NCBI GenBank assembly: GCA_006538405.1
Contig: BJKQ01000015.1
Location: 62,001 to 126,000, forward strand
From: Hansfordia pulvinata
Taxonomy: Eukaryota > Ascomycota > Sordariomycetes > Xylariales
Direction: 5' to 3'
DNA: 64,000 nt
Made by a program: the position numbers and the translations under genes. This document shows, piece by piece, positions 2,983 to 14,360 of this stretch; position 1 is the first letter of the stretch; every line of letters starts with the position of its first letter. Below the pieces are notes generated by a model that saw nothing but the letters and a program-made list of their open reading frames with translations, did no database searches and was not told the origin of the DNA.

Positions 2983-5900
2983 CTTGCGGGACTTTCGCCA
3001 GGCCCGAGGGTGCTGGTATTATGTTTTGGGTATTGGTTTCAAGTCCACTGCGCGGTGCTATGACCGAATGGAGATGACCTAGCGGAGGGATGAAGGGGTC
3101 GCGGAAGAGGGCTTTCGAAGATGGCACAGCCCGTGATCCGATGCCGAGTCGTTATCCCGACAAGGCGACGAATTGCAGAGATCGAGACAATTAGTGTAGA
3201 CTAAAGGAACCGGCTGTATTGAAAACAGCCCTGGTGTCCTTTCGCAGATGAGGCACGGGATGATTTCGGGATGAGACGAGCGGAGTTGAAGAGCCCGGCT
3301 CGTGGTGGACTGCCGCTTAATCGACCAATCAGACGGGAGCCGTTAGTGTCCGATTCGAGGAGGGCAGGAACGGCGAGAAGATAGATGTAGGGCCAGAGGG
3401 CGGAGGAGAGAACGAATGGAGGTCCGGGTCTCCAGCGCGTACGGACTGTCTATTCTCCAAGGACTGTATCCATCAAGCTAAAGACAGCTGATGGTGAGCG
3501 GGGAGGAGACAGGGGTAGATTATAGGACGTCAGGAGCAGAGCGGCAGAGACCACAGGGAGGGTGCTGCGCGACGCGGCGGGACGAGAAGACTGGTGAGGA
3601 TGGCGATGTTGATGGTGATGGCGATGGCGATGGCAGGTGTAGATGAATGGTGGATGGCGTGGTCAGCCGGATGCGGGAGAATTGAGTTTGCCAGGGCCAG
3701 ACAAGGAAACCCAGGACGCTGCGAGGCCGACAAGATGGGCCGGGGTTGCGTCAGACGGGCGGAAGGGTATGAAGCGTGTCTGTCGGTTGATGATGGCTGC
3801 CTGGTGGGTAATGCCGACGGGACAGACGGGATTCTTAGGTTGAGGAGGGGGGAGGCGGCGACGACGAGGGCGGCAGCAGCGGCAGTGGGAGGTGGAGGGA
3901 GTGAAGAGCGAAGGAGTGCAGGTGTGTGATGGGTCAGGGTGGATTTTGGCTGGAGATCTGGAGGTCGGGGGTCGGGCGGGTGGAAGGCGCAGAGCAGGCA
4001 GCCCTGCCGGCGCCGCAGGGACCTGGAGGGCTGGGCGGTACAGGGCTGCCAGAGCGCTGAAAGGCGGCCTAGAGCAGAATTTGGCAGCGGACGCGGCCCG
4101 GCTGGAGCCCCGAAGGGACCTACCCAGTGTCCCTGCAGAGGGCTGTCTCCAGGGCGTGCAGCCCCCTGTACCACGGATAACCCGTGCTCCTGCGTGCGGG
4201 AGGGGGGCCCCACGGGCGGCGTCTGGGGCTCGAAATGCGCTGGAACCTATCCGGAACGCGCCAGAACCTCGACTCACCCGGGCGGCGAGCAGCAGGACCG
4301 GAACTGGCCGTAGAGGTACTCGTATAACTGAGCCAGCCCGGCTGCGGTCGATTAGATTCGATGTGCACCGGGCACTGGTACTTTCGTGCGGTGCACGCGA
4401 TCTCCAGCTGCCTGGGTTTCGCTCTCCTCCTGTCCCGCCAGCGCCAGACACCCTTCAGGCGGCCTTGCACTCAATGTCTTGGGGTCATGTGCCAGCATAG
4501 CATAGCAGCCCGGCAGACACATAGAAGGCGGGGAGTTTGGCCGTCCATTTCGCGGCAGACTCGCCCATGGCCAGCCAGCGCCCACGCTCGGCGGCGACGC
4601 TCACCGCATCACGTAAAAATGGCAATATAAGCGCCTGGGCAGCCAGAGGCCGGCGCTGTAATCGGCGAGCCCGGCGCACGTGCACACGCACATGCAGTCA
4701 TGCCACAGATATGTACGGGTAGGTTGTACCCGGTGTGTCAGGGAGCGTCCGTGGTGACGGACCAGTATCACGCTGCGAAGTAGGGGTGCGTCGCTGCGGA
4801 ATATGCCAGAACAGAACACGAGATGCCGTAAGCAAGATTGCAGATTATACAGGACTCGCACACAGCATGTCTATTGCACAGGACGCACCTCGAGTCTACA
4901 GGAGTACACGCGGTGCAAGTCACGGGGAGAGGGTTCGAGGGTTCCGAGCTTGTGGAAACGCAAGCCACGATCAACGAATGAGGCGAACACCCAAGGAGCG
5001 GTCGGGGGCTGCAGACTTCGTCCATCACGCACCAGCCCGCCGCAGCTGTCCCAATGGTGTCCCAATGACGGAACAGCGCCAGCCAGCAGCCACCACCACC
5101 ACCACCACCATAACCACAACCGGCGGTGCTCGTAGCAGAGAGGGGGCCGGGAAGAGCGCCAGCGCGAAAATCGAAAATTGCTGGAGCCCCCGATCGCATC
5201 CCATGGATCGCGCCGTGGCCGAGTTCAACAAGTCGCCACCCCCTTGCCGGCCCCAAGAGCAGCATGAACCTTGCCTAGCGCATAATAGCGCAACGCAGTC
5301 ATTGATTTCGTCCTGTCGCCGGTTCCGCTCTTGTGCGACAGTCAATGGGCAGACAGGCAGCGGCGGCGATTCCGAGCCGGCCCATCACCGCGTGTTCTGT
5401 GTCTGTGAGTCTGCTATTCAAGTGCCGTCCGATGAAGTTCATGGAGTTCTCGCAGTGGTCTGACTGCATATACATGGATGTAGATAATTTCATATACATA
5501 TACCTCCCGTACGTACCTCCCGCCGAGGTAGATTGGATACTAGCCTGTGAGTGCGTGAAAAAGGCCTTTATTAGGGGCGCGAGCTGCGGCTGCGGCAATG
5601 CATTAGGGAGACGAGACGACCTCGAGCACACGGCTCATGAATCGACGGTGACGGCAGAGTGCGATATCGTTAAATCCACTGGCTGTGCGGGTTCCGCTGG
5701 TTTCCGATTTGATTTCCAGGGACCTTGATGAATGGGATGCCCCCATTCCGACGCATGCACCCTGGTGAGAGCCAGCCGCCATGCGTGGGTGGACGTGCCG
5801 TCCCTCGCGGAACGACCAGGGCAGCCGAGACACTCATCACTGCCCCTCACGACTCTCCATCCACCGTACGAGTATCGTCAACTGGCCCAGGGGCTGCTCT

Positions 5901-9307: not shown

Positions 9308-9335
9308 GCCGCGAGTCAATCGCCGCGAGTCAATC
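9308..9335. repeat. 14-bp tandem duplication
   Basis: GCCGCGAGTCAATC is present twice in tandem (9308-9321, 9322-9335), a short distance left of the inverted-repeat element at 9381. Confidence 0.9.
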
Positions 9336-9372: not shown

Positions 9373-9845
9373 CATTCACTCGCAGCGTGTATGCCGACCC
9401 CCTTTTCGTGTGCTCATACCCCCTCCCCTGCTCATTTTCCCAGCAAAATGCCCTTAACAAAGTACAGATACCTCGTATATCGTACTGCTAAGTATCTACT
9501 AGCTTTGCTAAGTATCTATAGCTTCATATTTAAAGTCAGGAAGTGCTACTAATTGGTTTTATCCCCGGCTACCAATTTGAGTGTTAAAAAGATAGGGAAG
9601 TATATGGACCCGCGCACTCGAGGTCCAGACCTGAAGGAGGGGAGGACCCCCCGGAGGGGGACCCCCTTCAGGTCGCCAGACCGACGTGCAAGACGCTGCT
9701 ATGATTAGTAGGTACATAAGATTTAGGAGAGGTACTTAGAAAGGAAATCGGTCAAAGTAGTCAGTACTTGCAGCTTTACTATGTACTGCAGGGGAGGGGG
9801 TATGAGCACACGACGGGGGGTCGGCATACACGCTGCGCATTCACT
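9373..9845. mobile_element. Non-autonomous DNA transposon (MITE-like, hAT-type target duplication)
   Basis: The element proper is 9381-9837 (457 bp). Its left arm 9381-9431 and the reverse complement of its right arm 9788-9837 match over about 50 bp, starting CGCAGCGTGTATGCCGACCC and differing only around a TTTT/CG patch plus one length difference. It is flanked by a perfect 8-bp direct repeat, CATTCACT, at 9373-9380 and 9838-9845. Long terminal inverted repeats plus an 8-bp target duplication are the structure expected of a cut-and-paste element; 8 bp is typical of the hAT superfamily. The interior is AT-richer than its surroundings and encodes no protein, so movement would need a transposase from elsewhere. 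I see no second copy in this window. Confidence 0.85.
9628..9674. repeat. Hairpin inside the transposon
   Basis: Arms GACCTGAAGG (9628-9637) and CCTTCAGGTC (9665-9674) are exact reverse complements around a purine/pyrimidine-biased G/C-rich loop. Partial extra pairing continues outside the arms. It sits in the interior of the 457-bp element. Confidence 0.8.
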
Positions 9846-12825: not shown

Positions 12826-14360
12826 CTATGGATTACCTGAAGTAGCCGTTTGCAGACTGACCTCCCAACGCAGGCTCCCTCCCTTGCCGTACCCTTCCCC
12901 GAGGCGGTTCTGAATGAGATTGCATATACGAGTGCGCATGCGATTCAGGGTGGCATCATCACTGCCGCCCCGGGAGATGCAAAGCTTCAGGTTGGCCATG
13001 CCGAGGCCATAGTGAACTTGCCAGAACTGGGCCTCCTCCACTCTCTCCACATTGGGCTCGGTCTCAATCTCGCGCAGGATATCACTAACACCAACATCGC
13101 CCGACTTGATGGCCGAGGGGCCAGGGCGGCCACCGTAGCTCATGAGCAGCATGAAGCCCTGAGCTATGGCAAGACGGGTGCCGAGGCCAAACATGGCGAC
13201 GGCCACGAGGCCGCAGACCGCCGAGTCCAGAGCCATGCCAATGGGTATCGAAAGAAGGGGCAGCAAGACGAGGAGAAAGGCGGTGGAGAGGGTGAGAAAG
13301 TGGAAGGGGTTGGAAAGAACGCTCGGAAGGCTGGAGAGGTAGCTGACGCGCATGATGCGGGTGATCCTGACGTGGTTTTTGAGCCCGTAGGCGCTGACGA
13401 GGGTAGTGACGATGGCAGCAAGGCTGAGCATGTCAACCGAGCCGTGGGCGACGCGGGGCTCGTGGCTGTGGGGGTCGGGATGGTGAGGCGCGTGGCCCCC
13501 GGAATTCTCCAGCAGATGCTTGACGTTGTGGCTGACGAGGTCGAAGCCGCCAAAGATGAGGAAGACGCTCATGGCAAAGCCGGCCAGGACCTCGGCGCGC
13601 TCGAGGCCAAAGGGGTGGCGGATCGAAGAGCGCTTCCAGACCTCGAAGTTGCCGAGGACGTCGACGGCGACGCACACCAGGGCCGAGCCGACATCGAAGA
13701 AGACGAGATGAGAGAGGGCGGTCATGGCGAGGGAGCCGTGGCCGGAGAGGAAGGTGGACAGAGCGACCGAGAGATGGCACAAGCACCAGTAGAGGCGGCG
13801 GCGCTGGTCGGTGGACATGGAGCGCCAGGCTTCCTTGAAGGTGGGTATGGGCAGGTCGCGGGGCAGGGCGAGCGGCGGGCGGGGGGGCGGCTCGAGGAAG
13901 ATTTGGTGCTGGGCGCTGATGCTGGAGTGTTTGTACTTGTGGCCACGACGCTGGCCAACATTGGGCTTGACGGGCGAGGTGGAGATGACCTGGGTCTTGA
14001 AGTTGAAGGGATTCGGGGGTCGAGGGGCTCGAGCGAAGCAGCGCCCGCGGTGTTGTCGTCGGGCGGCGCCATCATTGAGGCTCGGCTGGGGGGCTCGGGG
14101 GTCAGGCGGCTGGTGTCGTAGCGGCGCCGGTCCGGCCTGACGGAGGGAGAGGGGGAGGGAGAGGGTGACAGCGAGCGTTCGGGGCTGTAGCTGTGGTCGT
14201 GCCGCTGGTGGTCGTGGTGGTGATTACGGTGATGGTGATGATGATGATGTTGGTGGTCGTGTTGGTGGTCGTGGTGGTCGTGATCGTGCTCGGGATAGTA
14301 GAGAGCAGGAGTGATTGCGACCGAGGGCGGCGTGGGCGATGAGGGCGGCGGACGATGCAT
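12826..14360 (-). CDS. zrg17: CDF-family zinc transporter subunit Zrg17 (one apparent frameshift)
   Basis: The C-terminal two thirds reads in one frame from about 14020 to the TAG at 12826-12828. It has the Zrg17-type signature (VGQRRGHKYKHSS, then an aromatic/proline-rich block) followed by several hydrophobic helices and a C-terminal RWEVSLQT strand. The N-terminal part, starting at the ATG at 14358-14360, lies in another frame. It is rich in His/Asp and His/Arg, as expected of a zinc-handling protein. The frames meet at a run of five C (minus strand, 14015-14019); a sixth C would give one uninterrupted protein of about 511 residues. I see no plausible intron at the junction. Zrg17 pairs with Msc2 in the ER membrane to import zinc and lacks canonical metal-site residues of its own. 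The ORF may start further upstream. Confidence 0.88.

Follow-up and report, generated by a model that had tools for sequence, protein, structure and literature searches.

A conserved central core shared by miniature inverted-repeat elements with different ends in the genome of Hansfordia pulvinata

A stretch of 64,000 nucleotides from the fungus Hansfordia pulvinata (contig BJKQ01000015.1, positions 62,001 to 126,000 of the forward strand), hereafter the window, carries a short element bounded by inverted repeats (Table 1), which raises two questions: to what kind of mobile DNA does it belong, and which of its parts is kept from copy to copy? The arms of the element match in inverted orientation over 22 nt at 100% (9381-9402 with 9816-9837) and over 33 nt at 91% (9399-9431 with 9788-9820). 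With up to 3 mismatches allowed, the first 20 bases of its end are present twice in the window, whereas shuffled sequences predict 0.01 occurrences, and no open reading frame of at least 60 amino acids was found lying wholly within the 457 bp. A match of 11 bases, GCATTCACTCG, surrounds both junctions, so that the target duplication of this copy can be read as either 8 or 10 bp long. A preliminary description had proposed a 457-bp inverted-repeat element with an exact 8-bp repeat, and both the arms and the junctions bear this out: the element is a miniature inverted-repeat transposable element (MITE), that is, a non-autonomous DNA transposon with terminal inverted repeats (TIRs).

We searched the genome (46.8 Mb in 63 contigs; C numbers denote contigs and L numbers loci) and found three further copies with the same ends, named end type A. 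They lie at C9:183548-183965, with a perfect 9-bp duplication (CTAAACAAT), at C5:1838331-1838745, with an 8-bp duplication (CAAACGTG), and at C8:447908-448322, with an 8-bp duplication carrying two mismatches. The preliminary description had taken the element for a cut-and-paste transposon, a view that the lack of any other copy would have undermined; it is supported by the further copies, which are flanked by different duplications, but the 8-bp length expected for all of them does not hold, as 8, 9 and imperfect 8 bp are seen. A wider set of 26 elements, comprising 20 that carry the central core described below, with duplications computed, and six others judged by eye, contains 7 perfect 8-bp and 7 perfect 9-bp duplications, 4 of 9 bp with one mismatch, 4 of 8 bp with two mismatches, and 4 elements with none convincing. 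For the 20 core elements, which measure 280-539 bp, the corresponding numbers are 7 (window copy counted), 4, 2, 3 and 4, the ends and the duplication length having been picked jointly by minimising mismatches, which favours finding duplications. The elements of the group are almost certainly transposed non-autonomous elements. Two shorter derivatives with little beyond the two ends were also observed: L078 (C10:1959671-1959781), of 111 bp, flanked by a perfect 9-bp duplication by eye (TTCGCCCCT) and standing outside the count of 26, and L069 (about C4:8366-8490), of about 125 bp.

The central core of the window element (element bases 161-333, about 160 bp) matches many places that do not have the window's ends. 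Twenty-two of the 23 places, a lower bound, came from one search and one was added later; 20 were delimited as elements with inverted ends and entered the element alignment, while the core alignment holds 21, with C8_1057 and C13 excluded. With gaps counted as differences, core identity to the window copy is at least 0.82 in 11 of the 19 other elements and 0.53-0.77 in the remaining 8, against 0-0.46 for the left and 0.23-0.58 for the right subterminal stretches. When gaps are left out, the mean pairwise identity reaches 0.79 in the core, 0.64 and 0.62 in the two ends, and 0.43 and 0.46 in the stretches between. The core is also better conserved than the subterminal stretches in all 14 pairs of elements sharing an end type, pairs that are mutually non-independent and come from a grouping by eye of 14 of the 20 elements, in which the window's type is represented only through its three relatives. 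The core elements thus have the mark of conserved-centre MITEs, a centre more conserved than the ends between families. The left subterminal part of the window element contains a 20-bp unit repeated twice (9486-9524), absent from the aligned copies, and a perfect 14-bp tandem duplication, GCCGCGAGTCAATC (9308-9335), lies a short way to the left of the element.

The ends of the elements are built on a common plan. Of 48 ends, 37 repeat the hexamer of end positions 17-22 exactly 21 bp inward, one mismatch being allowed; no other pitch accounts for more than 5 ends, and none of 1000 shuffles exceeds 5 at any pitch. The hexamer position was picked after viewing the ends, and the two ends of one element are not independent. 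These 48 ends belong to 24 elements, namely the 20 with the core, three coreless ones and a long element on C1 (see below); the coreless C9 and C6 elements and the C8, C16, C2 and C7:1701 elements stand outside this count. Eleven ends depart from this pattern: the two ends of C9:1399749 (2-3 mismatches), of C8:2617 and of C5:1837, a single end in C9:1485, C5:2809, C8:1057 and the C1 element, and the right end of the window element. End type A carries ACCCCC, the coreless type ATACCC and the majority of core elements ACGCCA; the left end of C8:1057416-1057954 has ACATCC, and C6 has AGGCCA. Copies of the hexamer mostly agree within an element and differ between end types, so that the end types probably answer to different transposases. 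Indeed, a hexamer pair two helical turns apart is the pattern expected of a transposase-binding pair, from which we infer binding at these positions.

Ends and centres appear in more than one combination. Judged by its sequence, the element at C9:1399749-1400178 is the clearest chimera of core and ends: its core is 93% identical to that of the window copy and its ends share little with the window's beyond CGCAG and scattered positions. The same end type, or a close variant, is present in five elements without the core (Table 1), all with 9-bp duplications by eye, 3 perfect and 2 with one mismatch. Their centres fall into two unlike versions, one in the C10, C15 and C6 elements and the other in those of C5 and C9. 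A stretch of C8 (L093) contains one of the coreless centres again (66-71% across 80-140 bp); it has a decayed ACGCCA-type end on both sides and no duplication, which makes it a weak case for exchange. As one end type thus occurs with and without the core, and one centre in two settings, ends and centres appear to recombine, and we consider exchange of centres between end types to be quite probable. The exact ACGCCA-type end pattern gives 19 matches in the genome, 16 of them within core elements, one in a short derivative on C4 and two in new stretches. The new stretch on C8 measures about 741 bp and has decayed ends, that on C16 measures 422 bp, and in both a duplication by eye and an open frame of 150 amino acids are lacking.

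Within the core, a possible long hairpin could be drawn. Over 21 copies, 89.4% of 463 cells are paired, against 29-45% with the partners slid by 1-3 columns, a comparison in which the hairpin has an advantage, having been drawn from the same sequences. Changes on both sides occur in 6 of the 23 hairpin pairs; shuffles give 3.2, and 6 of 500 have as many as 6. Six copies folded singly gave z-scores of -1.2 to -4.9, the value for the window core being -2.0. At the predicted minimum, L014 and L018 fold into the full hairpin, L019 into a variant of it, and the window copy and L015, for which the stretch folded was shortened at the 3' side, into its inner part only. Conservation of the predicted hairpin in the core is moderately supported, and a role as DNA is not distinguishable from a role as RNA.

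We propose that these elements form a modular MITE group, in which the centre is exchanged among end types and the core is kept by selection for a function in cis. A transposase from another element would probably bind the hexamer pair at the ends, insertion would duplicate 8-9 bp of target, and the different end types would probably be served by different transposases. The core could be passed among elements by recombination, for example by template switching in repair after excision, and would be held by selection on the element itself, acting most likely as a cis-acting hairpin, in the form of DNA or RNA, that aids the spread of copies. The balance tips slightly towards some cis function of the core, and since the explanation includes this step, it is as a whole favoured by the same slight degree.

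Several observations weigh against this explanation. No transposase tied to these ends was found in the genome. Apart from the four elements of end type A, the set was assembled by way of the core or of elements carrying it, which biases it towards conserved cores; the core surpasses the ends in 4 of the 14 same-type pairs; taken with the 14 of 14 over the subterminal stretches, this makes the core about as conserved as the ends within a type and more conserved than them between types. Invariant columns of the core do not cluster significantly (p 0.08). The case for core exchange depends mainly on C9:1399749-1400178; the second centre adds less to it, its ACGCCA-type carrier being the decayed stretch on C8, which has no duplication. 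The comparison of core and end trees is not decisive: with 4 of the 20 elements dropped beforehand from the core-tree set (C8_1057, C18, C8_2617 and C5_2809), end type A as a single clade is not significantly rejected by the core tree (approximately unbiased test, p 0.119), and the one grouping that the end data reject (p 3e-11) was proposed after inspecting the cores and is unsupported by the core tree itself. With regard to the hairpin, further pair types number 15 against 14.0 in shuffles (147 of 500), part of the paired changes are C-to-T or G-to-A, which repeat-induced point mutation (RIP) could produce on both arms, RNAalifold alone gives a weak structure (-7.24 kcal/mol) with little covariation, and the minimum for L017, one of the six copies, is another fold.

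Some of these points would suit a functionless core, in which case MITEs of different end types would swap centres by gene conversion or template switching and thereby recopy one abundant centre. The centres do look exchangeable, one end type occurring with or without the core and the second centre in two settings, and the conserved columns are not significantly clustered; however, the core leads the subterminal stretches in every one of the 14 same-type pairs, non-independent as these are, and hairpin pairing is retained with both-side changes at 6 of 23 pairs, both of which speak against this reading, and we regard a functionless core as unlikely, if worth serious consideration. The sharp edges of the core and its recurrence in unlike elements could also be accounted for if it were a mobile element itself, SINE-like (a short interspersed element) or a smaller MITE, nested inside other MITEs. 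This is highly improbable, given that 20 of 20 delimited core copies lie within a TIR-bounded element and that, among the three other places, one has both ends, one has a right end by eye (the left was not inspected) and the third is a decayed copy with no ends visible. A tRNA-derived or Rfam-known core is likewise unsupported, as no tRNA was found in the six core loci scanned and the core has no Rfam match above cut-off. An exact core 20-mer was found neither in the viral contigs nor in the prokaryote genomes.

Two further readings are alternatives to each other, but not to the modular explanation, as they bear solely on the superfamily. The preliminary description had pointed to hAT, and part of the elements do have 8-bp duplications. 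In addition, the genome contains 8 matches to the hAT dimerisation domain, 7 of them in loci of 21-28% G+C (L060-L066), and all 8 carry stops in the transposase domain; low G+C and stops are as expected of RIP, and the autonomous partner might be one of these degraded loci. However, an 8-bp duplication is not the rule across the group, perfect 9-bp duplications being as common (7 of 26 elements each), and no clear match to the element ends was seen near the 8 domains, within about 1.5 kb on each side at most; with C-to-T and G-to-A changes allowed, the best of 64 tests had 2 mismatches in 22, in L063, against 3.6 in shuffles. The hAT assignment is thus unsupported, and a hAT MITE family appears doubtful. 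Target duplications are 8-10 bp long in Mutator and 8-9 bp in Merlin, and the mixture of 8 and 9 bp, together with ends of about 50 bp, would suit Mutator-like or Merlin-like MITEs. No match in the genome was obtained for the MULE (Mutator-like element) domain PF10551, positive in 4 of 14 control genomes, or for the Merlin-type (IS1595-type) domain PF12762, positive in 1 of 14, though the partner may be absent from the assembly; this origin is possible, at somewhat less than an even chance. The KDZ (Kyakuja/Dileera/Zisupton) domain PF18758 gave no match either in this genome or in any control genome, which makes the negative uninformative. As 8- or 9-bp duplications fit hAT poorly and Mutator or Merlin better, we leave the superfamily undecided, the partners sought among hAT, MULE, Merlin and KDZ being either not found or not tied to the ends.

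Other candidates for the autonomous partner were considered. The C1 element (L012:2947-5064) measures 2118 bp, has ends of the window's type and is flanked by 8-bp sequences that differ at two places by eye. It holds two related open frames on the minus strand (L012:3371-3997 and 4320-4874), with weak C2H2 matches below the Pfam cut-offs; a search with one of the two returned no protein relatives at E 0.001. This element is at most a weak candidate for the partner, and the frames are possibly captured sequence or an uncharacterised protein. Single ends at C40 and C45 have no second end in 6.4 kb and 5.5 kb, respectively, and were rejected as ends of a large element, as was a single end at C43, judged from reading of the sequence only. 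The loci at C40 (L068) and C43 (L082) have near-identical stretches starting CGCAGCGTTTATGCCTAC beside the same flank, and these resemble copies of a duplicated region more than they do a transposon end. At C45:33800-39300 (L086), a long open frame on the minus strand, putatively an Ulp1-type protease by its resemblance by eye, has an orphan 32-bp element end about 3 kb away.

Elsewhere in the window, positions 12826-13818 of the minus strand hold a gene for a cation-efflux protein, the first 20 relatives listed being 76-79% identical. Those named among them include proteins of Hypoxylon, Hypomontagnella, Anthostomella, Neoarthrinium, Truncatella and Apiospora, which we take to belong to the Xylariales or near them.

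Table 1. Coordinates of the element, its parts and the coreless elements (window positions unless a contig is given)
Feature	Position	Strand	Details
Non-autonomous TIR element, end type A	9381-9837	+	457 bp
Left target-site duplication CATTCACT	9373-9380	.	exact match to 9838-9845
Right target-site duplication CATTCACT	9838-9845	.	exact match to 9373-9380
Left TIR	9381-9431	+	94% identical to 9788-9837 reversed (BLAST, 51/50 bp)
Right TIR	9788-9837	-	pairs with left arm
End hexamer ACCCCC, left end, copy 1	9397-9402	+	TIR position 17-22
End hexamer ACCCCC, left end, copy 2	9418-9423	+	21 bp inward
End hexamer ACCCCC, right end, copy 1	9816-9821	-	
End hexamer ACCCCC, right end, copy 2	9796-9801	-	pitch 20, excluded from 21-bp count
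Shared central core	9541-9713	+	matches at no fewer than 23 genome places
Possible long hairpin in core	9614-9689	+	GCAC/GTGC, GGTC/GACC, GACCTGAAGG/CCTTCAGGTC, CCCCC/GGGGG
Coreless elements	C10, C15, C5, C9:1176813-1177337, C6:1992273-1992881		525-609 bp

Elements with a constant part and variable remainder are found in other systems. CORE-SINEs and other SINEs with conserved central domains keep the domain while heads and tails change; all of these are retroposons, however, and differ in that from the fungal DNA elements, with their inverted repeats and target duplications. In maize, Mu elements combine a single end type with unrelated centres, the reverse of the present pattern of one centre with several end types. 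The mimps and other fungal MITEs are likewise fungal non-autonomous DNA elements, mimps having TA duplications instead of the 8-9 bp seen here. The portion of the literature surveyed, with most subscription journals outside its scope, names no fungal case of a MITE with a conserved centre.

The closest published case found is that of the CMITEs of Acropora corals (Wang et al. 2010, PMC2872659), which, according to that paper, are MITEs with conserved centres and variable ends in which a short terminal motif is kept. As described there, they are about 100 bp long and present in many copies, with piggyBac-type ends measuring 13-14 bp and duplications of TTAA, and one family apparently derives from a piggyBac-like element; the origin of the internal region is given as not known, and the authors speculate that it may have a role in transposition (PMC2872659). 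The two groups are alike in their conserved centre and variable ends. Unlike CMITEs, the fungal elements have neither TTAA duplications nor piggyBac-type ends, having instead CGCAG ends of about 50 bp and 8-9-bp duplications; they are longer (280-539 bp for the 20 core elements) and few in number, with a hexamer pair spaced by 21 bp, other exchangeable centres and no partner found. Compared with the coral elements, the fungal group is a variant with longer duplications.

A bolder extension of the modular explanation, which we regard as speculative and rather unlikely, would cast the core as a selfish hairpin module, acting in cis, that rides whichever mini-transposon has a working transposase. 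If so, the end types would turn over as transposases come, go or fall to RIP, the module would move to the next ends by recombination, and a layer of parasitism would exist beneath the non-autonomous transposon. MITEs are usually classified by their ends, and their centres are often regarded as filler; in this fungus, as reported for corals, it is the centre that varies less from one end type to another, and the two-turn hexamer pair is what sets the ends apart. Whether a MITE's centre plays a part in its mobilisation, and how elements of this kind outlive the loss of their transposase, thereby becomes testable.
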